Of a DNA stretch of 64,000 bases, positions 1-43,377 are shown one piece after another. Positions within the stretch are counted from its first letter, which is position 1. Every line of letters begins with the position of its first letter. Made by a program: the position numbers and the translations under genes. Source of the DNA: Exophiala sp. HKRS030 (taxonomy: Eukaryota; Ascomycota; Eurotiomycetes; Chaetothyriales; Herpotrichiellaceae). The stretch is from contig JAHWDD010000008.1 of assembly GCA_023897205.1 (NCBI GenBank), forward strand, positions 620,001 to 684,000. The letters run 5' to 3'. A model generated the notes under the pieces. The model searched no databases and was not told the DNA's origin. It saw nothing but the letters and a program-made list of their open reading frames with translations.

Positions 1-827
1 TCATCAGCGTAGACTACAGACTGTATAGCACATCCGCAAAATGGTTCTGCTCGAATCCATGCTGACACGACCAAGGGCTCCCGAATACAAGTTTCCCCGG
101 GGGATTGAAGATTGCTGGGAAGCACTAGAATGGGTACCACCAATCTCGGCATCTGCCAATTCTCGCCAGCTGACTGTGACAGACATTCAAGAACCACGAA
201 GCTTTGGGCATCGACTCCACCAAGATCATCATGGGAGGGAGTAGTTCAGGTGGTCACACAGTATGCGCACGCTTTCTGTCGCTGAACAGAACGGCTTACT
301 AAATCACTACTAGACCGCCGTCCTTTCTCATCGTGTCAAAGATGGCCGGTTCCCGATCAAAGGCTCCATCATGAGAATACCCTCCGTTTGCCATATAGAT
401 CAGTATCCTCCCCAGCTTGAACTCTACAGCCTGGAGGAGCTCAAGGATGCACCGCTACTATCTAAACGCTCGATGGAACTATTCTACGGCTACTTGGACC
501 CGCCCGATACATCAGACCCGGAAGCATCTCCTCTTCTCAATTCATTGTTCAAAGGGCATCCGCCCACATATATGCAGGTAGCCGGAATGGACCCCCTGCG
601 CGACGAAGGCTTAGCTTACGCGGATAAACTACGTGATGCTGGGTAAGCAGACTCATCTTGTCTCGAGGAGGTGCCATCCTGCTGACAACTGTAGCGTGCC
701 GGTGAAGGTCGATGTTTACCCCGGGCTACCACACGCATTTGGGTATTTTCCAATGCTCTCTGCGGCTAAGAAGAACGGTGACGACTTGGTTGCTGGGATT
801 GATTGGCTACTATCCAAAGCTTCATAG
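1..827 (+). CDS. alpha/beta hydrolase (HSL/esterase type), 5' end cut by window
   Basis: Likely a carboxylester or lactone hydrolase. Five exons can be read: 1-22, 76-133, 183-260, 314-642 and 695-827. The introns are 49-53 nt; the first two carry CTGAC and the third a CTAA-type branch point. The spliced protein reads ISVDYRL-APEYKFPRG, the usual segment after the oxyanion region, then the nucleophile elbow GGSSSGGHT, the acid motif MDPLRDEG and the catalytic histidine in GLPHAFGYF. All triad elements are therefore present; the upstream HGGG oxyanion motif lies outside the window. It is transcribed in the same direction as the SDR at 1202. Substrate cannot be told; the neighbouring BVMOs suggest an ester or lactone, which is inference. 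Confidence 0.88.
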
Positions 828-1201
828 ACTGAAAAGCATCGACGCCTGTTCAAAGCATTGCAAACTAGGTAGAGCTTAGAATAGGATCTCTCAACCATTA
901 AGATGCCCACTGTTTTTGCAGTCCTCATCCAAGTAGCTAACTTTACAATGTCAATAGTATAGTGACACCTTCCCTGCCATTGGGGAGAAATCCACGCTCC
1001 AAGAAGCCGGTGTCGATTCAAGGCTACCCCACACAACTGAATGCTGCTCCATATACTCATCCGGCAAACTTCCGTGGCTATGTGCGTGATTATCTGCCGG
1101 GTCGCCGTCGTCTTATAAAAGGACGGGGCAGGGGCAAACGTTTACCTCGCACCTCAGCAAGGTCCATCGTCCTCGTCTCTTCGACCTCATTTTTGCTTAG
1201 A
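828..1201 (+). promoter_or_regulatory. promoter region of the SDR at 1202, with TATA box
   Basis: This is the gap between the first hydrolase and the SDR. TATAAAA at 1114-1120 lies about 82 nt before the ATG at 1202, a normal distance for a fungal core promoter. I see no gene here; a longer open frame from 962 only shadows the SDR. Confidence 0.5.
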
Positions 1202-2276
1202 ATGCCTCATTTCAATGCCAGGGTATGCGCCCCAACTAATTTGAAGGACAAGGTTTTCGTGATTTCTGGTACGCCCATCAGTATTTCCCAATTCTGCGGC
1301 AGTGCCGGGAAAATTAGCTCACGTTTTCTCCTCAGGAGGCTCAACCGGAATCGGTGCGGCGACCGTAGAGCTCATCGCCTCCCTCGGCGGGAAAGTCGTT
1401 TTTGGAGATGTCAACAGAGATGCGAGCGAGGCTCTGATAAGGAAACTCAAGAACCCGGACATCCACTTCCGCTTCTGCGACGTCCGTTCCTACGGGGATG
1501 TTGTGGCACTCTTTCGTGACACCCTGTCCCTGTTCGGTCGAGTGGACCACGCCGTTGCAAATGCTGGGGTGATTGAGCAAGGAAATTGCTTTGACAAGTC
1601 TCTTACCATTGACACCGTCAGGCAAGAACCTACCACCCTGGTATTGGATGTTAATCTCAAGGGCCTATTCTATTTCTCCCGCGTGGCTGCAGTATACATG
1701 GCTCACGAAAAGGGCGTGGAGGATGATAGGAGCCTGACGTTGCTGAGTTCAGCTGCCGGGTTTATCGAAAGTCGGAATTTATTCCTCTATCAAAGCAGCA
1801 AGCACGGAGTTTTGGGTCTACTACGGACGTGTAGATTGGCGTTCCCGGATGGCATGAAGGACGTCAGGGTGAACGCTCTGTGCCCTTCCTTTGTGAGGAC
1901 CGCAATGACCAAGGATATTGCGAGCGCTTGGGACAAGGCAGGACTTCCCGCCAACGAGGTGGAGGATGTGGCTAATGCAATTGCTATGATGGCAGCCAGT
2001 GACAAGACTATCGCTCCACGCCTTCTTGAAGACCATGTCGGTGCTACTGGTGTTCCCCTGAGCCAAATGAAAAGCTACGGTGCGATGGAATGGGGTGCTG
2101 TAGAGAGTCGGGTTGGGCTGACAGGGAGAGCTTTTTATGTTGAAGGCGGAGTATGTTGGGATATCGAAGAAGGACTGGATAAGACCAGACCCCTCTGGCT
2201 AGGACAACAGCCCAACGACCAGATTGCTCAGGTGCAAAGTCTGATGCGAAAAATTGGGTATCGGGAGAGAAACTGA
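1202..2276 (+). CDS. short-chain dehydrogenase/reductase (335 aa)
   Basis: An NAD(P)-dependent oxidoreductase, probably interconverting an alcohol and a ketone. Exons are 1202-1268 and 1336-2276. Splicing restores the nucleotide-binding motif SGGSTGIG (residues 22-29), which the intron interrupts. Further classical SDR landmarks are ANAG (97-100), the catalytic serines near 160 and YQSSK (174-178). Length exceeds the usual 250-280 because of a roughly 60-residue C-terminal extension rich in charged residues after FYVEGGVCWDIEEG. The ATG at 1202 was chosen because the N-terminal beta strand (LKDKVFVISG) follows directly and a TATA box sits upstream. It belongs to the BVMO-rich island; its substrate is unknown. 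Confidence 0.9.
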
Positions 2277-2363: not shown

Positions 2364-3559
2364 CTACTTTGACTGGCGGTTGTGTTCATCTATAAAGACC
2401 TCACTCGCCGTCAATCCGGCGTCGCAATCCGGGCCGTTGAGCCTGCAAAATCCATGTTTCGAACCCGGGAAGATGGAGAGCAACGTGTCATTGCAGCCCA
2501 TATGCCATTTTATGCTTGCAAATAGGCTGTCATCGTACAAACAGTCATCAGTGCCTACAACGAATATCGCCGGGGGCAAATTCGTCCAGTCAGCCTGAAA
2601 GAGTGGAGATATCTCTGGGACCTGTCGATTTCTAACGTTGCTGAGCCAGGAGTTGGCAAAGTTGACCATGTCGACTGGGCTCAAAACCAGATTGTCCTTG
2701 AAGGCGCGGACAGAAGGTGTCTGGTCCATATCTACCGACAGTTAGGCACTACTTTTAAGAGGGAAAAATTCTCACTCTTACCAAAGCATCCGTAGTTGAA
2801 TACAACAGCATCAAGCTGCGTCCGAACATCAATCCCCCTGCTGCGCAGCGCGAACACAGTAGTCATGGTGAGATGTGCCCCTGCGGACTCGCCTCCAATG
2901 AGGCGCAAGGGTCCCAGCTTTTCCTCAACTTCAGGAGTAAGTAGATATAACGTTGCATCCAAACAATCGTCCACCGGTGCTGGATAGGGATGCTTTGGTG
3001 CCAGGCGGTATTCACAACTGGCAACGGTGTATCCTGTGTTACATGCTATGCGGTACAACGTCTCGTCTTCGATGTCTGCAGAGCCGACGGTCCAACCTCC
3101 TCCGTGAATATGGAGATACACCCCTTTCGACCCTCCATTTGAGGCCGAGGCCGGCTTGAAGACGCGCAAGTAGACGCCTTGTGCCCCGGTAGAAGATGGG
3201 AAAGGAATGTTCACTGCAATGTCATCAAGACGCTTCCGAGCTGGCCAGCCACCACCACCGTATTTCATCTGGTCACGGAAGCGTTGCGCACCCTTCTCAG
3301 AATAGGGTTCTTCCAGCTGATACCAAGGGATCATCGTATTCCAGATTTCCCTTAGAGCGGCGTAGAACCCTTCATTTGCTTTCCTCTCTTCCGCCGTCCA
3401 TTGATGGACGCGGATCTTTAGGTCATTCATGTTCAAACCAGGTCGCAGAGTCTGTGTTGCTTGAAATGCCGCTGATATCGAGAACAAAATGCAGGTGCGG
3501 GAGACCAAAGATTTTATGAGACAGCGCCGTTCCCCCCTCATATGGTCCAATCTAAACAT
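2364..3559 (-). CDS. alpha/beta hydrolase, HSL family (381 aa)
   Basis: Predicted esterase or lactonase. Two exons on the minus strand, 3559-2782 and 2731-2364, are separated by a 50-nt intron (2732-2781) that joins FNYGCF to DMDQTP. The HGGGW oxyanion motif is at residues 152-156, the nucleophile elbow GGESAGAH near 222-229, the acid in VGTDDCLYDD (about 321) and the histidine in SKHGF (about 352), so a full triad is visible. The first ATG (3559) gives a hydrophobic, poorly conserved-looking head; the ATG at 3430 (MNDLKIR) is an equally plausible start giving 338 residues. It is convergent with the SDR on its left. Confidence 0.88.
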
Positions 3560-3952: not shown

Positions 3953-5023
3953 TTAACCAGAGATCTGCCCTCTGCGTTCAAAGCCTTGGTCAGTGAGGTC
4001 TCTTCATGAGCGGTGCAGAACTTACCCATCTACCACTAGACCATGACCATACATATAGCTACTCAAATAAGAGACTAGGTACACGATCGAATTTCCAATC
4101 TCCTCCGGCTGCCCAAGCCTGTTGGCAGGGATTTTCTGTAGCAATGCTTTGCGATATTCATCAGTCAACGCTCCTCGGAGCAAAGGAGTCTCAATGAATC
4201 TGCAATTCTGTTAACAGAGGGAAACTCGCTCAGCAGGAGGCCCACTACCCGGGACAGATGGCATTGATGCGTATTCCATGGCTTGCGTACACCCGTGCAT
4301 CCTGTAGGAATATGCTTGTCAGGTAAAGTACAAGTTACTGTCATTCAAGAGTGACACACCGTTTTGGTCAAGCCGACGACACCGTGCTTCGCGGCACAAT
4401 AAGCAGTAACAGGACTCGCACCAGAAGCACCAATCAAACCCAGCACTGACGCGACGTTGACGATGACTCCTCTTGATTTCACAGGGTGGGAGCTGGGCCT
4501 GCCCCTTGTCAGCATCTCTTCATCTGGTGAGACAGTAAACCCAGCATACCCAGTCGGGCGGAGTTCCTGCTTGACCATCTGCTGGATCTCCGATCGTTGA
4601 CAAAGCCACACGCCGTTCAGATTGACACTGATGAGACGTTGCCAGTCCGTCAAAGTGACGTCCTCGGTCTTTCCGAGAGGACCAGAAATGCCAGCATTAT
4701 TGACTGCATAGTCGATGCGACCAAATGCAGCCACCGTTTTGTCGACAGCTTCCTTCACAGACTCTTCTTTGCTCACATCGAGCTCGATGAGCAGGACATC
4801 CACGTGTGAGGGCTGCGAGGTAAGTGCGGCCTTTGTCTCCTCCAGTTTATTCACGTCTAAGTCTCCCAAGGCGAAACTTTGGACCCCATGTTGAGCCATA
4901 CATAGGGCCGTAGCCTGTCCGATACCTGGGCTTTGTCAGCTCCCACCGACTTCTGTTTTGGAGAGTCTAAGTACCGGAGCCCGCTCCAGTGATGAAGGCG
5001 GTACCTTGCAACAGACTCGACAT
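3953..5023 (-). CDS. short-chain dehydrogenase/reductase, five exons (286 aa)
   Basis: Classical SDR. Exons read on the minus strand are 5023-4975, 4925-4360, 4301-4249, 4199-4026 and 3971-3953, with four introns of 49-58 nt. All five are needed: the first supplies TGAGSGIG (residues 12-19) with the intron inside it, the third gives HGIRINAICPG, the fourth the IETPLL lid and the LGQPEEI segment, the last completes VDGGQISG. NNAG (92-95), the catalytic serine (176) and YCAAK (192-196) are intact. A roughly 30-residue insertion (about 135-166) precedes the serine strand, as in many fungal SDRs of this type. It lies head-to-tail with the BVMO at 5374-7125, so the pair may act together on an alcohol/ketone. 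Confidence 0.9.
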
Positions 5024-5373
5024 ATTTGCGGTGCAGGTGAGCTTTGCAGGCGGAAGGTTCGGGTATCGGTAGGACAATAAAACCAGTTCGCAGTTTCTGC
5101 ATATTATAAGACATCAACGGATACGGGTCCGAAATGTCCGACTCCCGTACTTTTGGGGTAGACGGCAATCACAACCCGGGTTGACGAGGGTGCGCATTAT
5201 GCATATAGGAGTGGTAGAGGTCCCATTGAACTTTATGGTAAAGCTTTGGGCATATGTGCACATATGCACACCCCAAGAGAACCCTTTCACTCCTTCCATG
5301 GCCCCTCGTCTCCCAACGACCCCTTTACAGCTCTCAAGGCAAGATCAGAGGTGTTTACATCCGTAACTAAACT

Positions 5374-7125
5374 CTATACCCTAATTTCCGTCTTAAACCC
5401 GGTCCATTGCTTTTGCGCCTCCTTGCACGCCTTCTCGTAGACATCGAGGCCGGCAAGGTAGTTCAGTTGCTCTCGTTTCTTTCCAGGAATATTGGCCCCC
5501 ATATACCAAGAGTTTGTCAGGGGAAACAGCGTCTTCGAGTTCATTTCCTGGATGTCATCTGCCCACTTCTCGGCCGCCTCCGGCGTGGCCTCGATGGTAT
5601 CTATCCCTTCTTTCTTCATCTTGGCCAGTGTCGACGCTACCCAATCTCCCTGGACCTCCACAATGGTTGTACCGTTTGCTAAGGCCGTGGGCGCTGTTCA
5701 GATTAGCTGTTTGCACCAAAGACATCATGAGGAATCAGAGCAGCCGACCTTGAGGACTGTAGACCATGAACATATTGGGAAAACCGGGGCATGTCATTCC
5801 CAATTGTGTCCGCACCCCATCTTTCCATCTCTCCTTCATATCGAGACCGTCCACGTCTCTAAGGCCCATACTCGTAAAGCTTCCGGTGATCGCGTCGTAG
5901 CCGGTGGCTAAAATAATGACATCAAATTTACGCAATTTGCCATCAGTCGTGACGATGCCCTCCTTGTCAAACCTTTCGATGGGTGTCTCCTTGAGGCTCA
6001 CAACATGAACATTCGGCCTATCGACAGACTCATAGTAGTCTTGTTCCAAGCTGGGCCGCTTCGTCCCAATGGGATGGGGCGGTACTTCTGGCGCAAATAT
6101 CTCCCGCTTTCTGGGGTCGGTGATTCGCGCTCTCACTTTCCTCTTCCAAAAATCATACATCAGGTCGTTTGCTTTTTGGTTCACAATATAATCGTTGAAG
6201 CCTCCGATGCTGAAATTGAAGCCACCGCGTGACCAGAGCTCCTCCCAGCGTGCTTCTCGTTCCTCGGGAGACACATCCAAGACACCTTTCCCATCGGCCC
6301 AGTAACCAAGGCCGGACTTGGAGTTGCGAGCAATGTTGAAAATATGAGGGTATATACCCCTGTTTGCATTTTGTTCTTCCGGCGTCAACTTACGTTGTTT
6401 CATCGGGAAGGCCATGTTCGGTGTGCGGACGTAGAGGGTTAGATTGGCCGCTTTCTTGGAGACTTCTTGTGTGATCTGAATTCCGGTGGCACCTATGGTC
6501 ACATTAGAATATTCCATCTTGTGCTTAGTACGGTTGTAGTACCTTGACCCACGATGGCGACGTCCTTTCCTGCGAAGTCAAATTCGCCCTTGGGGAAATC
6601 TGCTGCATGCAAGAGCGTGCCTTTGTAGTCTTTGATGCCCGGGAAGTCTGGAAAATGCTTCTTGTACGACGAGCCCGCCGCCACAATCAAGTATTTGCAT
6701 CTGACTGTGGTATTTTGAGCAGTCTTGACCACCCACTCTTTGGCGGGGACATCGAACTCGCTCGAAATCACTTCCCGTTCGAACGCAATATGATCGTAGA
6801 GGCTGAGGACAGAGGCTACGTAGTGGAAATACTCTCGCAACTCCTCGTGTCCGGGGAATCTTTCGCTCCAATTCCAACCCTTCCACACTTCATGCATACT
6901 GTACTGGTAGTATGGAACCTCGGAGTCCACCCGCGCTCCAGGGTATCTGTTGTAGTTCCATACGCCGCCGAGTTCCTTGCTAGCTTCAAGTAACTTGGTG
7001 TCGATTCCAGTTTGGCGAAGTTTGTACAGAGTATAAAGCCCACTGAAGCCTCCGCCAACAACCAAAGCCTCCACTTCAAGATTTTTGGCGGCGTGCCAAT
7101 CACTGGGCTCAGCGATTGATCCCAT
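5374..7125 (-). CDS. type I Baeyer-Villiger monooxygenase (548 aa)
   Basis: A FAD- and NADPH-dependent monooxygenase of the cyclohexanone monooxygenase group, expected to insert one oxygen next to a ketone. Exons on the minus strand are 7125-6543, 6492-5749 and 5693-5374. The FAD Rossmann motif GGGFSG is at 24-29, followed by GGVWNYNRYPGARVDSE. The second Rossmann motif GQGATG (193-198) is split by the first intron, and ATGYDA follows in the C-terminal half. The BVMO fingerprint region reads YKGTLLHAADFP (168-179): the central histidine is kept, while the consensus F is Y and the W is F. The start at 7125 (MGSIAEPSDW) was chosen because the longer frame has no ATG. Substrate unknown. Confidence 0.92.
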
Positions 7126-7758
7126 TTTTTTGATTGGAAGAACAGTTTTGGAAACGTCAAGCGACAAAGGCTGGAGAGAAATCGAAGACCAGTGTAGATA
7201 CAAGGCGCCAATGTATATCTGGTGCTTCTTCAGCCAAGTGCTCAAATTCCCCGGTTATGTATGGCTGTCATGACTCGTTGTGCTCTCGTGAGTGTCGGAT
7301 GTATCCGGGACCACCTCGAACTATCATCTTTCCTCCGGCAAAGCAACTGCCGATTCGGTGCGATTCAGGAGGGATTCGGCTCTCTGACTCTGCCCTCGTG
7401 TCATTCCACTGATCCCCATTCCCCGCGCAGAATCCACATTTGATTTTAGAAAGGCTGGTCCCATGGCGTAAAGTGGGGAAGAACTTGTTAGTGAATTTTG
7501 CTTCACGGGTCTTTTTCTTGGGATATGGACACAAGCAAGATACCACCCCGACGACCTGGCTACATAGAAATTTATTCAGTTATAAACAATAGCTCATTCT
7601 GTTGACTCTATTGCCTTGATGGGCCTCGACACCTCTACTTCGGCGCAAGGAATTCCTCATTTCTTGACGATGGAGGCGTAGACCTTGTCAATGATCGGAG
7701 GCTGGGCTCGTCAACCCGCTCAGGCTTGAATACATCTCCATGCTTTCTCCCAGATGTC
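7126..7758. other. intergenic between BVMO start and downstream end of the next SDR
   Basis: Promoter of the minus-strand BVMO. It includes CTCCGG near 7334 and GGGATTCGG near 7372; the second also occurs before the BVMO at 41554. A short stretch near 7640-7690 reads like a protein end on the minus strand but could not be spliced to the neighbouring SDR. Confidence 0.35.
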
Positions 7759-8601
7759 TTACTTGTTCACTTTCGAATTGAGCCATTGGAAGAGGTTGGC
7801 AGCCCCCGATCCAGCCCCCATTCCTCCATCGACCGCCAGCACTAGTGATTCTAAGTCTTGCCATTTTCTCTTTGGAATAGGATCCAACTTACCTTGACCG
7901 CTTATGAAAGATGCCTCGTCGGAGGCCAAAAAAAGTGTCGCATTTGCAACTTCAAGTGGTGTGCAGCCACGCGACAGTGGGATGCTGCTGAGAAGAAGTG
8001 CCTCGGCATCAGGCGCAGCACGGAATGCTGCAGTCATCGGTGTGATCATGTACCCTGGGGCGACACAGTTCACGCGGATATTCTCATGCCCATGGTCCAG
8101 AGCCAGGCATTTCGCCATGTTGATAATTCCTGCTTTTGCGGCGCCATACGACGAGTTGCCAGAATCCCCACCAAGACCTGACGCGCTCGCGGTGACGACG
8201 ATGGATCCGCCGCCTCCCTTTCGCATCTGGGGGATGGTGACCCGAGCGAGATAGAACAATGCATTCAAGTCGACATTAATCATGTCTTGATAGTGCTTGA
8301 CATCCATATCTTCGATCAGACTCAGCGGCGTGAATCGTCCGGCATTGTGAAATAGAACGTCCAGTCTGCCAAACCTCTCCAGGCAAGTCTTGACTGCCTT
8401 CTCACAGTCCTCTGGAACTCCCACGTCACATTTGGCATAAGTAGCATTCGAACCGAGTTTTTCCAAAACAGATCTCTCCTCGATATCTGTAACGAATACC
8501 TTGGCTCCTTCGTTCACAAACGATTGGCATGCCTCTAACCCAAGGCCCGAGGTTCCTCCCGTCACGAAAACAACCTTGCCAGTAAACCGTGAGCGCGACA
8601 T
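7759..8601 (-). CDS. short-chain dehydrogenase/reductase (263 aa)
   Basis: Classical SDR with TGGTSGLG (14-21), HNAG (85-88), catalytic serine near 139-141 and YGAAK (152-156). Exons on the minus strand are 8601-7893 and 7841-7759. The 51-nt intron (7842-7892) is a multiple of three and free of stops, so an unspliced reading inserts 17 residues into the C-terminal FISGQ-VLAVDGG motif; splicing restores the family consensus. The ATG at 8601 is used because the longer frame starts at a TTG. It is divergently arranged with the cytochrome b5-FMN dehydrogenase on its right. Confidence 0.9.
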   Translation of the reverse strand: MSRSRFTGKVVFVTGGTSGLGLEACQSFVNEGAKVFVTDIEERSVLEKLGSNATYAKCDVGVPEDCEKAVKTCLERFGRLDVLFHNAGRFTPLSLIEDMDVKHYQDMINVDLNALFYLARVTIPQMRKGGGGSIVVTASASGLGGDSGNSSYGAAKAGIINMAKCLALDHGHENIRVNCVAPGYMITPMTAAFRAAPDAEALLLSSIPLSRGCTPLEVANATLFLASDEASFISGQGKLDPIPKRKWQDLESLVLAVDGGMGAGSGAANLFQWLNSKVNK

Positions 8602-9415
8602 GTCGATGATGCACTCGAATGAAACAGCTCGCGAAAGGGTCAATGTCTCTGCTTAATCGTCGATGTCGGTCAATCCCACCTCCAGCAAACAGAGGTTGGG
8701 TTCACGGCTGGAATACATTGGACTCATCTTGTACGCCTTTGGATCTCGGAAAGTTGCCGGCTTTCGTCCCATTTGTACGAGTCATGTAGGATGGCCCAAT
8801 CATTAAACCCTTTATGATTGTTGGACTTCTCAATCAGTGAGGCCGTCGGTAAAAACCATAGCCCGCGGCGATCGGTAGATCTGCATGGCCAGGAAAATAG
8901 CCGACTGTAGCTGACTTGCACCCTCACATCGTCCTTTCAGCTTCGACGGACTTTTCGGAGCTTTGAAACCCTCGTTCAGAATCTGTGTGTACAGGACTTC
9001 TACTCAGCCGGTGGCAATATGGCACTAGACCCATGGCAATACGACATGCGGAGGAAACTGCACTTCTACGGCATTATGACCAGCTCGCCAAGGAAGGTAC
9101 TACCGAACTAATAAGCCTTCGCATTCAGTTGAGGTTGTTCCTTGATTTCTGGAGGGGTACGAGCCCATATCGGAGAGGGTCCTAATTTTATTGGCGCGGT
9201 TCTGGATTTTCCGTCTTAACCAGGCTCAATGCAGTAAGGATGTTTCAAAAGCACGCCATGCTCGGCATCGATTCTTGTTGGAATGATAGAACTGCATTTG
9301 ACTGCTCAGAGGTGTCGGTGTCCCTGTGCATCGGACATCCAAGTAGTGGCGCCTACTTCATATAGGAAGTTGCTTGGCTGCTTGCACTTGCAACGCATTC
9401 CGCATTACGAACGAA
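8602..9415. promoter_or_regulatory. divergent intergenic region between SDR (-) and FMN dehydrogenase (+)
   Basis: About 0.8 kb that must hold both promoters. Open frames here are under 70 codons and resemble nothing I know. No clear TATA box or repeated operator was recognised. Confidence 0.4.
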
Positions 9416-14396: not shown

Positions 14397-14496
14397 AACA
14401 AATTTCATTTTTGCAGCGGCGACGTACGTGTGGTTTCGATGCTACCATTCTCTGTACTGTTGGGTGTTGAGGCCCGCCCTGTGATAGTGGCCGGAG

Positions 14497-31623: not shown

Positions 31624-31918
31624 CTTCGGATCCCGAGGGCGATAGTAGCTTGACCTTGAACGATGCTCGTTGAAAGAGACTTTGCTGTCCGTACCTCGTA
31701 TTCATGACTTTAAGACCCATAAACTTGATGAAACACACCAGGGGAAGCGGAGAGCCGTCCGGGCGGCAATTCGGCCCGTTGATATCAGAATGTAGAGCTG
31801 ACTTTGTTTTCTTCACTTGCGCAATGTGCATATATCAACACGGTAACCCATCTCGTCAACGGATAAACACCACAACTTCCATGCTACACCAGAGCTACTC
31901 TCTACAGGTTTTGCCATC

Positions 31919-32984
31919 ATGAGCAACGCCCAGTCCTCCAAGGCTCTTGCTCCCAGCCTTTTCAAAGGCCGTGTCGCGATTGTTACAGGTGCGGGATCGC
32001 CCTATGGCATCGGACGCTCCATCGTGCTGCTACTCGCCCAAGCAGGTGTAGATGTCGTGTATGCAACGGATCTGAACCTGGGAAACATTTCGTCCCTGCA
32101 AGAAGCTGTCAAGAAAATCAATCCGGCCTGCGTGGTCGAAGGACGTAAACACGATGTGGCGTCCGAGGAGAATACTCTGCAGATCTTGAAGGAGGTGGTC
32201 AAGAAGCATGGCAGGTTGGATTTGTACTTTGCGAATGCAGGCTTCGCAGACGTCCGGTAGGTTGCACGGAGCACAACAAGCTGTGGCCAGAACTTGTCAC
32301 TGATGCAATACAGAAACATTAACGATTTGACAACAACCCAATACGAACGTGCAATGGGCGTGATGGCGACGTCCGTCTACTACGCCATCAAGTACGGTAG
32401 TCAAGCACTAGCTGTTACTTCGCCTTCCAAGCCAGTTTCAGGAGGCAGTATTGTGGTCACAGCGTCCGTAGCCGGCATCATGGGTCTATTCTCGGACGTT
32501 GCCTACTGTAAGTTGAAGAGAAACTCCCGGTAACGGGGATCTGTTATGACTAACAACTATACGTCTCTCAGCCACAGCAAAAGCCGCTGCTATAGGGCTA
32601 GTAACCCAGGGTGCGGTCCAACTTTCGGCGAGTAATATCCGGGTCAACGGTGTCGCACCTGGTGCAGTGCAGACCAGTCTCATCGTCAACGCGCCTCATG
32701 CTCAGGAGAAGACAGAATTCAATCTGGTCATGAGCGAAACGGAAGCGAAGCAGGAGTTTCAAAAGTACATCGACGTTTTGGGCGTGGAAGCCCAACAGCA
32801 ATATTCCTACAATCGAGTGGCACAGCCAGATGAGATTGCTCACATAGCAGTCTTCTTGGCTTCCGACTTGTCTTTAGCTGTCAACGGTCACATCGTCGTG
32901 GCAGACAGTGGCAAGACGAAGGCCGCACTTGGAGAGTCTTATATCGGGCCGGTTCCTCCGGTGAAGCCGCTTGAGTTATCATGA
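31919..32984 (+). CDS. short-chain dehydrogenase/reductase (314 aa)
   Basis: Exons 31919-32256, 32314-32507 and 32572-32984. The nucleotide-binding motif is TGAGSPYGIG (23-32), two residues longer than usual. FANAGF follows near residue 106. VTASVAG supplies the serine, and YSTAK (177-181) is created only after the second intron is removed. The tail ends KPLELS. It lies 295 nt behind the long BVMO on the same strand; the pair fits alcohol-to-ketone-to-ester chemistry, though only position supports that. Three exons and the ATG at 31919 agree with the protein alignment pattern. Confidence 0.9.
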
Positions 32985-33979
32985 ATGGCATAATGGGCAA
33001 AAAGCAACATTAGTGCTACATCTGAAGACCTCCCGTCAGTCGCGATGGACACGTCAAATAAAATAGATGAAAAGAGTGGGCAGTGCCCACTTTATTTCAT
33101 AGGGATTCAAAGCCTCTTTGCGTACATACGAAGCAAGAATACCACATCTATTCTCAAGCTTGCAGTAGCACTACTTCGCCCTCATTAACTGCCAACATGT
33201 TTCTACAAGCTCTGAGCTTCCCGGCACTGGAATACCCACTCTAGACGAAGATGTCAGATAACCGTGAATTCAGGTTGACCGAAATACTGGCTAACACATA
33301 AGCGAATCCGATGATGCCGATCAATTCGCTGACGGCACCACTAAACCGGCCTCATATTCCCGGTGCAAATTAGTCTAGGCGGCTTTTCTGGCTTCCCCTC
33401 GGGTATTTATTCAACCCGGTCTGACTAGATGAGGCCGGACGCGAAGAGAAACCACAACCGGTCGCCGAAAATTCCCAACATCAAAGGATCAGAGGGAACT
33501 CAGCTGCCTACTCCAACCTCAGATTCACTCGTTTATCGCGTTAAGAGCGGCCAATACCCGAAATAGATTGGAGTGGGACCATGCTGGAGTCCCCAGATTT
33601 GCCTACATGGTACCCGCACTGGAAAGGAAACCATGGCTGTGTATACCCTCAGTATATCTTTTTGTGCTGTTATTGGCCCCGACTACTCATCAAGCGTGGC
33701 CAGAATATCCCAGGTCTCGTTCCCGGGACGGCATGTGCACGGCTTCTATTGTACGGCCTCTGTATCGGAGAGATGATAAATTAGGTTGCAGATAGCCATC
33801 TACTGGGAGCTGGCACGTATAAGTCCACATCTTGTCTCTGCTCCGTTACCCCACAATCCTCCACTGCTGAACTTTGAGTGCGGAGGAGAATCATCTGCAT
33901 CGCATTCAGACCGTTTCGCGCCCCTCCTTCGGAGTTCATTATCAGGATCAATCCGAACAACCAACTTCAATTCGCCGGA
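32985..33979. promoter_or_regulatory. intergenic, with a 32-nt hairpin and promoter of the TRI12-type carrier
   Basis: About 1 kb. A near-perfect palindrome at 33067-33098 centres on AGTGGGCA-G-TGCCCACT (33075-33091) with imperfect outer arms, 90-110 nt after the SDR stop. CGG-N10-CCG at 33347-33362 is a possible Zn2Cys6 site upstream of the transporter. Three overlapping 67-75 codon frames near 33570-33795 have no features and are not called. Confidence 0.4.
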
Positions 33980-36091
33980 ATGGATACTCCTTCAAAAGAA
34001 GCTGCAGCTGTTGAGCAGTCTTCCATCGTCCAGATCGAGGACGCAAAGGGCGACGGACGATCAAATGAGGAGGATATTTTGATCGTGACCACTGAAAACC
34101 CCTACGGTGAAATCAACTTTATTGGGACTTTCATCGCCATCGCGCTCTCTATCATCGGCGCATATGGTGGTTGGGTCATGCCTGCAACCTCTCTGTCAAA
34201 CATCAACGCGGATATCGGTGCGTCGCTCGCTCGTGCTTCTGTGGTCTCCATCTTTGCAACTGCTCGTGAAGAGGTCGCTGACAAACCCATACCTGTAGGT
34301 CCGTCTGCCGATATCAACTGGGTGGCGCTCGTGTGGACGCTCTGTACTGGTATAGGCTTCACCCTTGTGGGCAGGCTTTCCGACATCTTTGGTCGACGGT
34401 ACTTTTTCATCGCTTCCGCCGTTCTTGCAACCATCGGGTGCATCGTCGCCTCTCGGGCTCAGACAGTCAAACAGCTGATTGGAGCCAATGTTCTAATCGG
34501 CCTGGCAGCCGCTGCCCAGTCGTCTTTCAACTATGTGGTATCGGAGCTTGTTCCTGTAAAGCATCGGTTCTATGCCCTTTTCTTGATCTACTTCGCTGGT
34601 ATCCCGATTATGGCATTTGGTCCGATTTGGGCACGGCTCTTTATCACACAGACTGGACAAAGCTGGAGATGGATTTACTATATGATGATTATTCTCAGTG
34701 GGTCTTCTCCTCCAACCGGTCATGATATCCACTGACGCACTAGACTTTGTCAATGTCGTGTTGTGGACGACGTTTTACCATCCACCAGACTTTGCCCATC
34801 TGCACCGAAACAAATCAAAGTTAGAAGAACTCAAAGAGATTGACATTGGCGGCATCTTCCTCTTCACTGTCGGCTTGCTTCTTTTTATCATGGGCTTGTC
34901 CTGGGGGGGTGTTCAATATGCTTGGACGTCGGCTCATGTTCTCTGCACAATTATCATCGGCGGTGTACTGGTGATCGCGTTTGTGTTCTACGGTACGTAC
35001 CCTTCGAAAAACTGAAGACCAACTCTGACCATCGTCAATAGAACTCTACATGCCACTCAAACGTCCAATTGTACCAATGCACCTTTTCAAGAATCGAGAT
35101 TACTCAGCGCTGATCGTTGTGACGACGGTGGGTGGCATGATGTATTTTTCCATCAGTGGTAAGGACTAGCTTCTATGATCCAAAGTCACCATGATGTCGA
35201 CCTGACCAAGGTTCAGCTATCTATCCAGCGATGGTTTCCACCATTTTCACGTCGAACATCGTATATGGCGGTGTCCTCTCCACCAGTGTCACGGCCGGTA
35301 CAATCCTCGGCCAACTGATCGGCACCGCAACAGCGGTTGTTGGCGGCCATATGAAGCTGAAACTAGTGGTGGCCTGTGTCCTTATGACGGCCTTCAACGG
35401 CGGTGTTGGAGGCGCAGAACAGAGTAAGGCTATTGCTACTACCTTGAGCTGTCTAGGTGCTATCATGGTTGGGATTCTCGAGGGTTATGCCTGTGGGCTC
35501 GTCACCATCGTTATCGACGACCAGAAGGAGCTCGGTGCCGCTGGGGGTATATTCGGCAGCGTACGAACCCTTGGATCAGTGGTGTCAAGTAAGCTCCCCT
35601 GTCATCTGTCTTCTGGTCACTTGCAGTTTCTGTGCTCCTTTCGGCCTCCGAAACTTGGAATTGCTCTAACTTTTCGTACAGCGGCTATATTCACTTCGAT
35701 CGAGAACAATAAAGTCTCCCAGCATTTTGCCAACGATGTCGTCCCTGCTCTTATTCGAGCCGGGCTAACAGCCTCCTCGGCCGAGTCATTCGTCGGAGCA
35801 TACACGGCTGGTGACGTCGCCGCACTTCAGAAAATCCCCGGCATCACAGACGCCATCATTGCTACCGGAACTGCAGCAATTAAGCAGGCTTATTCAAAGG
35901 CCTTTTCGATGGTCTTTCTAGCCAGTATTGCTTTCGGCGGATGTGCCATCATTGCAGCCTTGTTTGTGCCCAATGTGGACGACAGGATGACGCATGATGT
36001 GGTTCGCCGACTGGAAGCGAGTGGATTGGGAAGATTAGGAGGCAAGAAAAGCAGTAATGCTGCCGCAAACGATGCTGGGAGCAAGGCTTGA
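33980..36091 (+). CDS. MFS transporter, TRI12/fungal efflux type (594 aa)
   Basis: A 14-helix-class fungal efflux pump of the plasma membrane. Six exons: 33980-34217, 34299-34697, 34744-34992, 35042-35158, 35217-35588, 35682-36091. The first (81 nt) and last (93 nt) introns are multiples of three and stop-free, so unspliced reading is possible; removing them gives NADIGPSADINWVALVWTL and VVSTAIFTSIEN, the expected family sequence. GRLSDIFGRRYFF is the loop 2-3 signature. A TRI12-like fold is recognised from the N-terminal GPSxxINWV block and the LFYHPP-like segment after helix 6. It probably exports a substrate, intermediate or toxic product of the island, which is inference. Confidence 0.9.
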
Positions 36092-36821
36092 TGTGTCTGA
36101 ATTGGTAACAGAATGACCCAGCTTCGTACTTGCGCAACGTGCCGATGAAGAGTGAGCCAGTATAACATCTTGACTCTCGACACCACTACTATTTACAATT
36201 ACAACAAGGGGACATTGACAATGATTTTGAGTTTTACTTTGCGATAGGATCGTATCTCTTCGTGCTGAACGCTTGGCACATAGACGACCTTGGGAATCAC
36301 TACTAGAAAAACCCTTCCGTCCAACTATTTGCTCCACCCCTGTGATACACGATAAATCTCAACTCGAGAGCTTTGCTGCTTGTATCTCTATAACGGGCTG
36401 AATGGCTGAACGAAATGCCAATGGGACACGGCCGGCGTAATTTCACGCTACTCATCGTCCTGCCGGTACCGTATCGTTTGCTGGACATTTCATACAATCA
36501 AGCCTGATTCGATCTTGTTCAGTCTGATGTTCAGTTATCTCCGCTCCTTTGTCCACACAGTCTTCTGTCAAAGTTCTGGGATAGCTACGTTAGGCCGTTG
36601 TCTTGTGAAAAAGAACGGCCCCGAGCCTGCAGCCAAGTTTGGGGGCCTCTCTCTAGATGCATGACTGCCGCTCGGAAGTGAGATATCCGCAGGACTTAGG
36701 ACCGGCTATCCGTCTATGCCGAGCCTTTTGATATCAATCTGGTGTCAGTCCAAGAAGGAACAACAGGATCCTGCGTTGCTGAGCTCTACAAAAAAGACTG
36801 TCCACATGTCCAAACAGCAAG
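36092..36821. other. intergenic between transporter and dioxygenase
   Basis: About 0.7 kb with no supported gene. It holds the dioxygenase promoter. Nothing regulatory was recognised. Confidence 0.35.
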
Positions 36822-38045
36822 ATGGCCGAGAAGCAAGCAGTAGGCTCCATAAACTCGAGAGAGGGAGAAACACTCAAGTACACATACCCTCCAGAAACCA
36901 AGGCGGACCGTGAGTACCATGTGATCCAGATGTTAATATCCCACGGCTCACCTGGCTGCAGTGGACTATGCAGACCTCGTGGCATTGGACCTTTCTTTGT
37001 TTGACTCCCCTAGGGGGGTTGAACGGCTGGCCGATCAACTGAAGAACGCCGTCGAGAACACCGGTACGTAGAGTCTTGGCTGGCAGTACTACAGTAAGCC
37101 TGGACTGACTGGCTTTGCCTAGGGTTCTTTTATATCACCAACTTTGGACTCTCCCAGGCAGAGATCGACCACCAGTTTGCGATTGCCAAGGAGGTCTTTG
37201 ATCTACCTCTGTCAGAAAAGCTCAAGTACGAAGCCAATCTGGAAATGGATGGCTACGTTGGCTATAGGCCTTCGGGAAATCGTGAACTTGTACCGGGAGT
37301 TTTTGACAACATTGAGGTATATGGCTTTGACCAGTTCAATTCCTATCGGAGGCGTCGAGAGCTACCTCCTGTCGTCGAACAGAACCTTTCCAGTATAGAA
37401 AAAGTATCGCGACATCTTCACATCGAAGTCGGGGGCAAGTTGCTGCGCTTGATCTCGATCGTGCTCGGGCTCCCGGAGGACTACTTTCTTTCGAGACATC
37501 GCTACGACCACAAAGGGGGTTGCAATTTGAGATACCTCAAGTATGGGGCGAGATCGGCCGAGGAAGTGGAGAAGCTTGGTGAGACGCCCTCCGTTCGTGG
37601 CCACACTGACTTCGGCACGTTGACGTTCCTTCTCCGGCAACCGGTGGCGGGGCTCCAGGTCAACACACCAGACGGGCAATGGAAGTATGTCAAAGCTCAC
37701 CCGGCAAGTATTACCGTCAATGTTGCGGACATGATGGATTTTGTCACTGGGGGCTACCTCAGGAGCAGCGTCCACAGGGTGCTGTCACCGCCCGCGGATC
37801 AGGCACGCCTGGACAGAATAGGGGTGGTGTACTTCTTGCGATACGAAGACGACGTGGCGTTACGCCGAGTCGATAGTCCCATCCTGAAGGACTGGGGCTC
37901 CAGGTCTCGGCTGGGCGAGGCGAGTGGAATCACAGCCGGAGAATGGGTCAAGGCACGAACAAGTGACAACGCCAAAATGACGGCCATCTACCTCAATCAC
38001 GAGCCCCAGGTCGCGGGTGGTATCAAGGTCAAGAACTACGCGTGA
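36822..38045 (+). CDS. 2-oxoglutarate/Fe(II)-dependent dioxygenase, isopenicillin-N-synthase type (370 aa)
   Basis: Exons 36822-36909, 36962-37063 and 37123-38045. The N-terminal DIOX_N part reads NTGFFYITNFGLSQAEID after splicing. The jelly-roll core carries the iron ligands H224 and D226 (GHTDFGTLTFLL) and H281 (SSVHRVLSP). R295 (DRIGVVYFLR) is the likely 2-oxoglutarate anchor, in an R-x-G context where R-x-S is usual. A hydroxylation, desaturation or ring modification of the island's compound would fit, but the substrate cannot be read. Its 2-oxoglutarate requirement is met by central metabolism. It has no neighbour closer than 700 nt. Confidence 0.9.
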
Positions 38046-39218
38046 GTCAGTGTGGATGAAGTTTTTCTGTTAGCAGTTTATGTAGCACAGGACGATGAAA
38101 AGCCGGTCCGGGGGAAGAAGGAGTACCTATACCTCGAAAGATTGGATCCCTGTCTGATATGAGACGCCTCTGTGGGCCCCTTGTCATGTTTTTGGACTGC
38201 AGCTCTTCCTTGGACACCCTCGGCCACAGCTAGTCTATTCTTCAGTGAGCTGGCCCTCGGATGACCAGCTATGCCTTTTTGACCTGAGGAATGACTGGGT
38301 ACTTTGATTTGCAGCTGTAGCATTACAATACCGAAAGCGGATTTTGGAGCCTGGAAGGATGATACATCACCGGCATAAGGGACATCCTCTCATACCACCG
38401 AGATTGTACCCAAGTAGCCTGTTCAATTCTCCCCAGGGGGCTGCTCGGAGAGCAACCGGTCCATTTTGGGAACATACCTGCATCACTGTTATCCTTCGCC
38501 TTTGCTTTGCCGTCGCACCTCATCCTCTCGCCTTATCTACTATTGGTCACACGAGAATCTTCAAGACCCGGCGCCCCAGTCTTCTACGGAGGCAGGAAGC
38601 TCATTCGAGTGGAAAATACGCCGATCACGGTGCACTATTCGGCTACTGGCAACCGAATGTTCGTCGCACGGGCTTTAGCATGAGCACGCCGATGATATGG
38701 CCAGGACCGTCGGCTTGACTGCTGCGTGCTTGAAATACACTACATACGGCTTCGGAGCAGCCTACTATTCGCGGCCACTGCGTCGCTGCATTCGAGACTC
38801 GCAAATACCCGCTCACTCATGCCGGCTCTCCAAACCTAGGGGTGGTATACAGCATGTACCTGTTGTCCTGTACCAACGATTGGCATATTCGCAGGTTGGT
38901 GTGACGGCCTTATCCGCCAAGAGATCTAATGATTCCCTGGTAATCGCTGACCATAGGTTTCCATCGGAAGATTGAAGGAAATCCGAACAAACTGTTATTC
39001 GTATTCTCCCCTTCGTTGTCTGATTTAATCTCTGTCACGTGAAGCATTTGCTACAGCCTACCACTAGAACATGTTGCTTTCTGCCTCAGGGCCTGTCGTC
39101 AACATGGTCCTATATACCACGGCGGCCAACAGCCCCCACAGCGTCCAAGATTACACTACCTCCGCATCATCCCATGGATTTTGGAAGTGTCAAAACATTG
39201 CTACTGCGGGTGCGAGGC
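38046..39218. other. long intergenic stretch between convergent dioxygenase and transporter
   Basis: 1.2 kb between the ends of two convergent genes. It has several open frames of 70-125 codons on both strands with no recognisable motif, so I see no gene. It may hold a decayed gene that I cannot identify. Confidence 0.35.
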
Positions 39219-41125
39219 CTAAGAGGTTTTCTCTTCATTGACAATTTCCTTGCGATGATAGACTCTTCGGGGAACATACCCCGTCAGGTACTTGTCGACA
39301 TCAGTCAAACATACGGCTGCAATAACAGCGACAAGGCCAACCGCCAAGGCAGCATAGTAGACGTAGGCGTAGGCTGCAGCTTGGGCGTACGCCGAAGCAG
39401 ACGTGACCGCCACGATGATGGCGAAGTTGATACCTTCGACGCTCTGGAAGGCCGATGCCGTCCCAGCGGCTATCGCGGCGTATAAATCGGGGAGTGAAGA
39501 TTGAGGGAGACCAGCCTCTATCGCCGCTGGTGTGACGTATTCCGGAAGCATCTGGGACACTTTGCTGCTCAGGATCGCGATGTAAATGGCGGTGAAGATG
39601 GATCCAGCAATGTTCCGATTCGCACAGCAGACGGCTAAAACCAAGTCAGTAGGTGCTGTCGTATGAGCTCAAAGGAAGCTCACCAAAACCAACCCCCAGA
39701 TCTTCGTCCGGCAGGATATACTGCACCATCAGGGTTGAGGCGATTTCCAACCATCCTGTGGTTAACGACGTGAAACACATCAGGGCGATTGCAGTAGTCA
39801 GGTTGTCAGGATTGCAGACTGAGACTGCTCCACTGAAAGCCGCCATCCAGCAAGCGCCAAAAATGACCTTCCACTTGACCTTCCTGTGCCAGGTGGTCAA
39901 TGGAGACAGGATCAGAATGCCAACGAGATTGCTGAGACTGATGATGTTGGCAAGCCAGCCCGACTGCTGCCAGGTCAGGTTTGCCCCGTAGATATTACTG
40001 ACTTCTGTGGGCCAGACGATGTTAAGCGCCGTATACGAGGTGCCAGAAGTAGCCGAGAGAATGGCGCAGCAGGTGAATCCCCGGAGATCCTTGTAGAGAC
40101 GTAAGGGTATGATTGGATATTGCACGCCCGAATATGCTTCCCATAAGCAAAAGGCGACCATGGTGACGAAACCAGAGATTAGGAGGCCTAGGATCGTGGC
40201 AGATTGCCACGGGAGAGGTTGGCCTCCCCAGGCGACTCCAAGGAGGAACAGGCAAAGACCCGCAACAAGGAGGAAGAGCCCCACGAAATCGATGTTTTTG
40301 ATCTCGTCCAATCGCCTGCGCTCCGAACTGTGAAGCATCTTGAACGTTGGAGGATGATAGAACAAGCCGAAACAGCAGAGGGACAGAGCTGTTTGCAAGG
40401 TCAGCACTGTCATTCACATGAGAAAGATGCGGTCATCTACCGTTCAGGATGATTCCGATGTAGTATATCCATCGCCAGGTAGAGACGTGCACAAGGCGGA
40501 CGGAGAGGTACGCTGAAAAGTTCAGCGGAAGGATGCAGGCATTCATGATCATTGTGACCCAGAACTTGTACTTATTTGGGACAATTTCACCGAGGAGCAG
40601 GGGATACGATGCGGCGATGCCTGAGCCCAGTCCGAGGAGAACATTGGCGCCGATCAACTGGTTCATATTGTGTGCGGTCGCTGCGACAATGCCGCCAATC
40701 AAGCTGATCAAGTTTGCTCCGACTGCAAAATAACGTCGACCAAAGCGATCCGAGAGTCGCCCAAAGACGAGCAGACTGATAGGTTGGCAGAGACTCCAGA
40801 CAATGGAGAACAGGCTGGAGTTGCCAGTGTTTTTCATGTCGGCACTAATGGTGGTCAAGACAGCTGCTGGGCCGATGAACATCCAGTAACTTCCGCAGAC
40901 AAAACACGCGACGGAGAAGACAGTCCCAACAATGGGAGGGCTCCAAAAGTAGCGACTTGGGAGATCTGCCATGTCTGACGAGAGTGCGACCGAGCGTTCA
41001 TGGTCGATGGCCTTCTGCTCCTCTACGGTGAGATGGCGTCCGCCGGCGCGTTGGTATTCAGCCTCTACATCCCCGGTCTTGGTCTCCTCCACGACATTTT
41101 CCTGTGCTTGACTGGGTTGCGCCAT
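39219..41125 (-). CDS. second TRI12-type MFS transporter (601 aa)
   Basis: Minus-strand exons are 41125-40441, 40388-39684 and 39634-39219, with introns of 52 and 49 nt. The loop signature is GRLSDRFGRRYF. LFYHPPTFKMLHSSERRRLDEIKNIDFVG after helix 6 is the TRI12-like linker also seen in the transporter at 33980. The final helix region ends with a basic tail. The ATG at 41125 (MAQPSQAQENVVEETKTGD) starts a hydrophilic cytosolic head of about 45 residues; the longer frame upstream is non-coding in character. It is divergent from the BVMO at 41554 across 428 nt, so import or export may be co-regulated with that enzyme. Confidence 0.9.
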
Positions 41126-41553
41126 GGATTTCTGCTTGGGGCGTCCTGTTCCTGAGCAGTCACGGTTTGTAGATTGAACTGGTGACTTGCAACTCAGAAA
41201 GCAAAGAGGTTTTGACCCCGATAGTGTGAGCTTTCCAGGGACGCAGAAGTCAACGAAAGGGTAAGCCGAAGTCCTCCAAAAAAGGTTATCAGCAATTAGC
41301 AGATTGCCTCGCCGATTATCTCCCCGTGCGGTGAAGGATAATGGGCCCGATGACTGAGCTTCCGATCGAGGACGACCAAAGCTAGCGCGAACTTGCATTC
41401 TGGAGACGGGAATGTGTCCGGTGAGAAACTAGCAAATCACGGTAACCACTACCCGAGCGGGATTCGGAGGATATTTATGCTATCGAGCCAAGGAAGCCAG
41501 GGACCTCATCCAACAATCTTGACAAGTAGCAGATACGAACCAAGTCAGCAACA
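41126..41553. promoter_or_regulatory. shared divergent promoter of transporter and BVMO
   Basis: 428 nt between two start codons. TATTTA at 41472-41477 lies about 77 nt before the BVMO ATG. GGGATTCGG near 41459 is repeated before the BVMO at 7125. Common regulation by a cluster regulator is inferred only from the arrangement. Confidence 0.5.
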
Positions 41554-43377
41554 ATGACTGAAAGCGAGGAACATATCTCAGACCATCTCACTGGGGACCG
41601 GGGAAATGTCGACGGGAATCTATATGCCTCGATGAATGGAGTACACGCTTCAGCCATCGAGAAAGCTCACCATAGCGTTGATCGAGGGCATAAGAAAGTC
41701 GTTGTTGTGGGGGCTGGGGTGGCCGGCATAACTCAAGCCGCCACCCTCCTCAAAAACGGCGCCGTCACACTCCCAGACCTACTCATTTTCGACGTGTTGG
41801 GCGGATTCGGCGGAGTTTGGGAGAAGAATAGGTACCCTGGGTGCGCATGTGATGTGCCAGCTTTGATGTATTCAAGCCGGATGATGATCAACACTGGTAA
41901 GGAGGTCGTGTATAACCCTCGCTATCCCTACTGATACGTGTGACAGAGTACACCCATACTTACGCGACACGGGACCAGATTCAGATGTTCTATGACCGCA
42001 TGGCCCGTTCGTACAGCCTCGAAAAGTGTACTCAATTCAGGACCTTTGTTAAATCGTGCAGGTGGGACGACGACAAATTCATCTGGCATGTCGAGACCGA
42101 GAACCAAGGCACCAGAAATCTGGAACACTGGACGGCCGATGTTGTCGTCCATGCTATCGGAAACCTGGATCGGCCCAAGTTTGGAGGCATTCCTGGACTG
42201 GAGGACTTCGACGGTCCCTATTGGCACACGTCCGCTTGGAGAGACGATGTTGATCTAACGGGGAAAAAGGTGGCCGTGGTTGGGTGTGGTCCCAGCGCCG
42301 CTCAAATCATTCCAGAGATTGTGGACAAGGTGGAGCATTTGACAGTCTACATGCGGACGCCGCCAATGGTTTTGCCGAGAGAAGACTATCGACATTCTGA
42401 GTGCGTTTCCCCGACACCTTTGGTCACCCAAGCATGATGCGACTACTAACTTGCCGTAGTGCCTTTATGTGGTGCATGAGACACTTGCCCTTGTTCGCCA
42501 TCGGCGTGCGCTTTTTGGAGATCTTGAAAGGGTACATCTTCGGACAACTTCTCGTGACCGAAGGCAGTTGGCTGAACGAGTCCTTCACCAACAAGGGCCT
42601 TGCCTTTCTCGAGCAACAAGTCCAAGATCGGAATCTGCGAGAGCTCCTGCGGCCGGACTTCAAATGTAAGACCCCTGCTGTGTCTCCGATGCTGATCGGG
42701 AGCTGACGTGGGCCATGGCGACAGTTCTCTGCAAGCGACCGCTTTTTTTAAACAGCTTTTATCCGTCCTTGATGAAACCAAACTGCACACTGGCGAGAGA
42801 AACGCTCGTTCGTTATATAAAGACCGGCGTCATATCCCGGGATCGAACGACAAATGAGGAACGCCGGCGGGACTTTGATGTTATTATCGTCGGCACAGGC
42901 TTCAACGTGTCGCAATTCCTCGACCACGAAGAAGTCACCGGTCGCCAGGGAATAGATCTTCAGGAACAATGGAAGGCCTTTCCCTCCAGTATTTACGGCG
43001 TCGCAACCTCAAATTTCCCAAACTTCTTCTACTGCAATGGACCAAATGCCAACACCTTCTCATCCAACATTCACGACATCAATGAACTGGCGTCCAAGTT
43101 TGTCTCCATGTGCGTCAAGGAGATATTCAGACGTGGAAAGGACGGTAGGAAATTTGCCATGATGCCAGAGTCCACATTCGAACGTGAATACAACGAGGAA
43201 ATCCAACGTAAACTCAGCAACATTGTCATGCAGAATCCCAATTGTGGAAATTCTACCGTCAAGGACAAGAACAACCACAACACAGTTCTACATCATCGAC
43301 ATATATTGGTCATGAAATGGAGACTCCGCCACATCAACTGGAAAGAATGGGTCACTCTGGAAGCAACCACATCATGA
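41554..43377 (+). CDS. Baeyer-Villiger-type FAD monooxygenase, paralogue of 15168-16931 (551 aa)
   Basis: Exons 41554-41896, 41947-42400, 42460-42665 and 42725-43377. GAGVAG (53-58) binds FAD, GGVWEKNRYPGCACDVPAL follows, and the fingerprint FDGPYWHTSAW (202-212) is intact. GCGPSAAQ marks the NADPH fold; the FATG motif reads VGTGFN. The protein has the same length as its paralogue, the 454-nt second exon is conserved exactly, and a third intron (42666-42724) is present only here. The C-terminal segment SIYGVATSNFPNFFYCNGPNAN is nearly identical in both. Duplication within the island, with later intron gain or loss, is the simplest explanation. This is the last enzyme gene of the island. Confidence 0.92.

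Follow-up and report, generated by a model that had tools for sequence, protein, structure and literature searches.

What is a dense run of Baeyer-Villiger monooxygenase (BVMO) genes for, when it is accompanied by hydrolases and short-chain dehydrogenases/reductases (SDRs) and lies in a fungal genome with no scaffold synthase recognized beside it? This question is raised by Exophiala sp. HKRS030 (assembly GCA_023897205.1; 59.8 Mb in 50 contigs), in a stretch of 64,000 nucleotides of contig JAHWDD010000008.1, here termed C8 (C8:620001-684000; hereafter the window, with positions counted from its first nucleotide and negative distances lying to its left). Fungal gene clusters are commonly interpreted as biosynthetic, and we know of no natural role for most fungal BVMOs, nor for fungal proteins of the AtuA family, one of which is encoded in the window. 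In the initial annotation, the genes at 1..43377 were proposed to form an undescribed degradative cluster, possibly acting in successive cleavages of one large substrate or serving a broad alicyclic/terpenoid diet. On balance, we lean towards a modified version of this proposal, in which the locus is a catabolic super-cluster of ~98 kb that grew by accretion and divergence of a smaller module and is largely under shared control by a Gal4-type regulator acting at CGG-N10/11-CCG sites.

Results

Gene models were made with a home-made fungal predictor, with approximate exon ends, and families were checked with Pfam on the models and with profile searches over the genome contigs. In the last run, the island comprised 44 models over ~98 kb, from window -54.4 kb to +43.4 kb. 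All families initially annotated at 1..43377 were recovered, i.e. five BVMOs, four HSL-type hydrolases, five SDRs, an FMN-dependent dehydrogenase (FMN_dh), an AtuA-like protein, a 2-oxoglutarate (2OG) oxygenase, three major facilitator superfamily (MFS) carriers and one Zn2Cys6 regulator. The annotated right end also stood, lying where the island enzyme families end, which is how this border is defined here; the left end proved to be only the edge of the window, and genes of similar kinds continue for ~54 kb beyond it. As a whole, the island holds eight BVMOs, two AtuA proteins and three PF04199 ("cyclase") hydrolases, and it has the make-up of a fungal catabolic cluster, with contiguous enzymes, carriers and regulators and without a recognized scaffold synthase.

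The reported absence of scaffold genes held for polyketide synthases and P450s: the sole PF00109 match on C8 is at 1.98 Mb, ~1.3 Mb from the island, and neither P450 heme nor ketoacyl synthase (KS) motifs were found in the 194 kb scanned, where an intron-split motif would escape. For nonribosomal peptide synthetases (NRPS), a scan of the same 194 kb with one motif gave a single doubtful NRPS-C motif at +88.9 kb, and no terpene synthase was noticed among models judged by reading only. A scaffold synthase immediately to the left of the window, which the initial annotation had named among the findings that would overturn its proposal, was found neither by the PF00109 search on C8 nor by the motif scans or the reading of models.

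Parts of the island recur as neighbours elsewhere in the genome. After merging of exon hits, we counted 25 loci for AtuA, of which four are weak matches, 33 PF04199, 31 FMN_dh, 43 TauD and ~101 BVMO/FMO loci, and neighbour statistics were computed for the non-island loci on contigs C1-C8 at a distance of 15 kb against 2000 circular shifts. AtuA lay within 15 kb of 7/76 BVMO loci (0.75 expected), a number reached in 0/2000 shifts, and BVMO-cyclase pairs were similarly frequent (6/76 versus 1.02 expected; 2/2000). AtuA and cyclase were paired at 3/16 loci (0.21 expected; 2/2000), while cyclases were also found near FMN_dh (4/23 versus 0.32 expected; 2/2000) and TauD (4/23 versus 0.53 expected; 13/2000). 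Co-location thus exceeds chance, with BVMO, AtuA and PF04199 being neighbours outside the island more often than after circular shifts. When all contigs are included, a BVMO or a cyclase lies no more than 15 kb from 12 of the 23 AtuA loci outside the island; among these 12, one is a weak AtuA match.

Two of these loci form compact modules. At C6:2.102-2.114 Mb, an AtuA gene is found with a cyclase (52% to g11), an SDR, a sugar-porter type MFS carrier and a BVMO, with an aldehyde-dehydrogenase-like piece beside them; the SDR model fell below the score cut in a later run. At C7:4.992-5.002 Mb, AtuA, MFS, SDR and BVMO genes are together. The porter subfamily of the C6 carrier is near module genes at 12/23 loci (the query locus counted), compared with 13/48 for less similar porters (p 0.06). 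A second large island lies at C2:5.2598-5.3043 Mb, of which 10 kb were read, with BVMOs, an FMN_dh, two TauD, three PF04199 and a porter with 48% identity to that of the C6 module. Two BVMO-AtuA pairs on C3 (2448866/2457281 and 7302093/7310461) have an equal spacing of 8.4 kb, a possible trace of duplication.

Zn2Cys6 dimers bind sites of the CGG-N10/11-CCG kind. In the window, 18 intergenic CGG-N10-CCG or CGG-N11-CCG sites lie in 5124..41456 (starting at 5124, 5163, 7336, 9197, 17144, 17207, 17297, 20682, 25227, 27717, 27930, 28001, 29501, 33333, 33347, 36673, 38640 and 41440), and another 16 lie to its left. The island thus has 17 sites of each spacing in 31.8 kb of intergenic DNA, compared with no N10 and four N11 sites in the flanks (39.5 kb) and 11 N10 and four N11 sites in eleven other 10-kb loci (58.1 kb intergenic). 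The sum of 34 exceeds the counts in 200 dinucleotide shuffles (mean 11.7, maximum 21) and in 2000 random placements of half-sites (mean 13.6, maximum 28). A site is present within 700 bp upstream of 27/44 island models, but of only 1/24 flank models (p 2e-6) and 5/30 control models (p 1e-4). The motif was noticed only after the C6 module had been fetched, and 8 sites were counted there in 6.4 kb (p 2e-4). Together, these counts support a putative Zn2Cys6-type site common to many island promoters.

The linkage of AtuA and the window regulator (g31) is kept in a relative. Gene-model differences aside, g31 differs by one residue from Exophiala oligosperma LTS17_001084, and LTS17_001080, the counterpart of the window AtuA, is on the same contig of 2,303,833 bases. 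The spacing appears to be the same in LTS17, because three genes lie between AtuA and g31 in the window and the tags run from 001080 to 001084. Metagenome relatives of AtuA (71%) and of the regulator (49%) apparently share a contig of 186,929 bases. In Fonsecaea pedrosoi, the regulator is matched over its full length by a protein with 54% identity (contig of 731,655 bases), and the BVMO at 41554 by one with 80% identity (contig of 483,577 bases), perhaps in different assemblies. The latter protein is the closest relative of the 41554 BVMO among the matches listed.

Type I BVMOs have a fingerprint of the FxGxxxHxxxW type together with FAD and NADPH Rossmann motifs, and all eight island proteins are predicted to be of this type. 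With permissive patterns, the first GxGxxG motif was found in 8/8 and the second in 6/8; in g5 the latter was recognized by reading (GSGATS), and in g28, the initial model of which (5374-7125) has one misplaced intron, an alternative boundary restores it. A fingerprint-like match is present in 8/8, with F, H and W all present in five (g5, g23, g32, g39 and g44), while in g33 the H is replaced by Q, in g10 the W by F, and in g28 the F by Y and the W by F. The eight proteins can be sorted into four or more divergent groups with 22-60% identity between members: g5/g10/g23 (37-46%), g32/g44 (60%), g28/g33 (33%) and g39. Such divergence is compatible with several substrates or several steps. The comparison with solved BVMO structures covered g33, g39 and, for the g44/g32 pair, its F. 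pedrosoi relative P0122 as a proxy. By match, g33 is in the CHMO/PAMO/STMO group and g39 is nearest 5mq6 (453 bits versus 263 for the next), which we take to be polycyclic ketone monooxygenase; the g44/g32 pair is distant from solved structures, with P0122 reaching 161 bits at best. Among the matches listed are proteins that combine a BVMO domain with Abhydrolase_3 (P0159 and P0167) or with an SDR domain (P0206).

The window AtuA belongs to its family by Pfam (AtuA, PF07287, 442 bits; AtuA_ferredoxin, 60 bits), and it has the fold of citramalate lyase (PDB 9evf). The latter has two chains, compared with one in the fungal protein, and the two do not match at the sequence level even with a 27-sequence profile. 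From the shared fold, AtuA is probably a C-C lyase. The frame 21045-22814 is 100% identical over 589 amino acids to LTS17_001080. Judged from this protein and g31, the black yeast studied here would be E. oligosperma itself or a very near relative. In exon 1 (20845-20980), an R stands where LTS17_001080 has M, for which one base could account; the window probably represents another strain or copy. The top listed relatives of the window AtuA are two metagenome proteins (71% and 67%). Among the matches listed, the next named relatives outside Exophiala are from bdelloid rotifers (Adineta) and distant yeasts (~55%), with the listed Pezizomycotina further off (~46-51%), suggesting patchy descent or transfer.

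From left to right, the window part of the island begins with an HSL-type alpha/beta hydrolase on the plus strand (1..827; gene start at -292; PF07859 at C8:619916-620646), followed by an SDR (1202..2276, +; PF00106, 106 bits), an HSL-type hydrolase (2488..3430, -; PF07859 at C8:622445-623115), an SDR with an incomplete 5' end in the model (3953..4899, -; PF13561, 123 bits), BVMO g28 (5374..7125, -; PF00743, 41.8 bits, and splice reading) and a further SDR (7657..8772, -; PF13561, 204 bits). The gene at 9614..10997 (+) had been annotated as a flavocytochrome b2-like dehydrogenase. Pfam confirms an FMN-dependent alpha-hydroxy-acid dehydrogenase type (PF01070, 339 bits) and gives no cytochrome b5 domain. 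Regulator g31 (11810..14396, +) is supported by Pfam and relatives, and its zinc cluster is complete in our splicing. Next are BVMO g32 (15168..16931, -; PF00743; 60% identity to the BVMO at 41554), BVMO g33 (17480..19174, +; PF00743; CHMO/PAMO/STMO-like by comparison with BVMOs of known structure), an HSL-type hydrolase (19407..20557, -; PF07859 at C8:639503-640061) and AtuA with its C-terminal ferredoxin-like domain, PF23544 (20845..22814, +). A sugar-porter type MFS carrier (23165..25000, +; C8:643276) is by similarity a paralogue of the C6-module transporter and is followed by an SDR (25558..26310, +; PF00106, 189 bits), an HSL-type hydrolase (28151..29059, +; PF07859, 179 bits, at C8:648373-648978), the 5mq6-type BVMO g39 (29658..31623, +) and an SDR (31919..32984, +; PF13561, 130 bits). 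The remaining genes encode the TRI12-type MFS carrier g41 (33980..36091, +; PF06609, 46 bits; 48% to a left-half paralogue), the 2OG-Fe(II) oxygenase (36822..38045, +; PF03171, 56 bits), an MFS carrier related to the TRI12 type solely by 31-32% identity to such paralogues (39219..41125, -; 32% to g41) and BVMO g44 (41554..43377, +; PF00743 and similarity). A short minus-strand reading frame at 26542-26958 has no Pfam match.

In the left half, BVMOs were recognized by similarity and motif at -37.6, -27.1 and -3.3 kb, and profiles place the second AtuA at -49.1 kb, TauD at -42.5 and -22.8 kb and PF04199 at -41.0, -28.8 and -24.5 kb. Pfam adds two SDRs, an AMP-ligase, an HpaI aldolase and an enoyl-CoA hydratase. 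A second FMN_dh (C8:602007) is 50% identical to that of the window, with a cytochrome-b5-like start by reading, and MFS carriers are also present. Four models are regulator-like, i.e. g17 at ~-14.5 kb, a paralogue of g31, a weak bZIP below the cut-off and two recognized by reading only. Both halves hold paralogous sets of AtuA, FMN_dh, TRI12-type MFS, sugar porter and Zn2Cys6 regulator (g17/g31).

Beyond the left border (~-54.4 kb), a PHD-finger gene and two chitin synthases were recognized by reading. To the right of 43.4 kb are a gene without a Pfam match, small models and, by reading, MFS-like and regulator-like models at 50.8-56.4 kb, followed by KGD1 (Pfam) and then, by reading, an acyltransferase and REV3. 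KGD1 occurs twice on this contig (C8:2904921-2907451 versus window 58114-60642; 76% DNA identity), as does REV3, named by reading (C8:2586245-2591318 versus L015:181-5286; piecewise 70-77% DNA identity). For E. oligosperma, drafts of 33.2 Mb (PMC8032472) and 42.4 Mb (PMC9671001) are reported. The 59.8-Mb assembly and the KGD1 and REV3 copies raise the question of an old hybrid or a whole-genome duplication.

Discussion

The degradative nature of the island is well supported: it lacks a recognizable scaffold synthase within the scope of the scans, the linkage of AtuA to the regulator is kept in a relative and apparently on a metagenome contig, and a putative site is common to many promoters. 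The idea of a single chain of cleavages from the initial annotation is refined here. The island resembles a series of copies, gained by accretion, of a module that occurs by itself at two other loci, and not simply one successive-cleavage chain; it may serve one pathway or several. In the model that we favor, the module consists of an MFS carrier, an SDR, a BVMO, a hydrolase (of the HSL type or a PF04199 cyclase) and AtuA. The carrier would take up an alicyclic or terpenoid compound, the SDR would oxidize an alcohol to the ketone, the BVMO would convert the ketone to a lactone or ester, and the hydrolase would open this product to a hydroxy acid. AtuA could then act on a tertiary 3-hydroxy-3-methyl (or alkyl) acid by retro-aldol cleavage, releasing acetate and a new ketone that could feed the next BVMO round. 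Remaining fragments would be finished by FMN_dh, TauD and 2OG oxygenases, AMP-ligase, enoyl-CoA hydratase and HpaI aldolase. The class of substrate, the sequence of reactions, the activity proposed for AtuA and the identity of the regulator acting at the sites are all inferred.

Several observations weigh against this model. Outside the island, BVMO-FMN_dh (2/76; 560/2000) and BVMO-TauD pairs (4/76; 185/2000) are without enrichment, and FMN_dh and TauD are both absent within 15 kb of the 16 non-island AtuA loci. Less similar sugar porters are also near BVMOs (9/41 versus 1.9 expected); the circular-shift null is blind to general clustering of metabolic genes, and the proximity of porters to modules is partly such general clustering. 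As for the promoter sites, the C7 and C2 loci lack enrichment (3 in 8.8 kb, p 0.42), and the two spacings were picked post hoc after scans of 21 spacings in three arrangements and then of 26 inverted spacings. Either spacing alone (17 each) is not above the best single spacing in shuffles (17) or random placements (21), and only the sum exceeds them. CGG-N7-CCG is raised too (15 versus 5.6 in shuffles), perhaps as the site of a second regulator, and some direct and everted arrangements were raised in the first scan, in which divergent promoters were double-counted. Among the matches listed for E. oligosperma LTS17, the 41554 BVMO has no near-identical copy, reflecting a strain difference or an annotation gap, and among the 120 matches listed for each of AtuA and this BVMO, no adjacent locus tags were found in other fungi. 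Finally, in bacterial AtuA neighborhoods (best 80 loci), enoyl-CoA hydratase (41), SDR (16) and AMP-ligase (16) are common and HSL (3), BVMO (3) and cyclase (1) are rare, so that the substrates of AtuA may instead be CoA esters in a different route.

Alternatively, the locus could be a hot spot in which independent catabolic mini-clusters for different substrates adjoin one another without sharing a pathway or a regulator. The five regulator-like models and several kinds of carriers in 98 kb, the divergence of the BVMOs, the modules that occur alone at other loci and the tendency of oxidoreductases and porters to cluster throughout this genome would all fit such an arrangement, to which we assign a modest chance; it does not readily account for CGG-N10/11-CCG sites spread over the promoters of both halves, nor for the paralogous sets that the halves hold. 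It is rather improbable that the island is for detoxification, with enzymes that inactivate lactones and ketones from plants or microbes without feeding growth. TRI12-type carriers are efflux-like, and two BVMOs of Grosmannia clavigera are implicated in terpene detoxification in a review (PMC8120277). However, AtuA, HpaI aldolase, AMP-ligase and enoyl-CoA hydratase indicate full breakdown to small acids, and carriers of the sugar-porter type suggest, from their family, import. Even though BVMOs and 2OG oxygenases often serve in tailoring and TRI12-type pumps are present, we consider it highly improbable that the island represents the tailoring part of a biosynthetic cluster, given the remote position of the only ketoacyl-synthase match on C8, the results of the motif scans over 194 kb and the flanking KGD1, REV3 and chitin synthase genes.

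The closest known system is likewise an ascomycete gene cluster. In G. clavigera, a 30-gene cluster is reported to respond specifically to terpenes and potentially to metabolize them (PMC3680317), and our island is, to this extent, not the undescribed type of cluster that was initially suggested. The two clusters are likened by description; the island carries eight BVMOs, a pair of AtuA genes and three genes of PF04199 in 98 kb. In Aspergillus terreus, BVMO, SDR and CoA-ligase genes, some of them up-regulated by salicylate, lie beside the 3-hydroxyanthranilate cluster (PMC7842363); these are likewise fungal catabolic genes of BVMO, SDR and ligase type, whereas a single BVMO is mentioned, and the substrate is aromatic. 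With the bacterial Atu/Liu pathway for acyclic terpene utilization, the island has an AtuA family protein in common, but it pairs AtuA with BVMOs, and no geranyl-CoA carboxylase was noticed in reading the models, a profile search for it not being part of this analysis. An acetate-releasing C-C lyase step is assigned to AtuA in one source (PMC4847356) and to LiuE in another (PMC4097962). The thn operons, which serve to cleave the rings of naphthalene, are also listed with AtuA-like lyases (PMC12016498).

The most interesting lead is an AtuA lyase coupled to BVMOs. We speculate, tentatively and with more doubt than confidence, that AtuA supplies the missing C-C lyase step in a widespread fungal route that unzips methyl-branched alicyclic (terpenoid) skeletons, parts of whose module recur many times in the genome, and that the island is the largest accretion of this module and forms one regulon acting through the CGG-N10/11-CCG sites. 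With the promoter motif, the reach of the regulon could be tested in one experiment. If this idea is true, the AtuA-BVMO module and the fold-based AtuA reaction would give both protein families a testable role, and the module would be a map to further routes of terpenoid and alicyclic degradation, with possible use in bioremediation and as a source of lactone biocatalysts.

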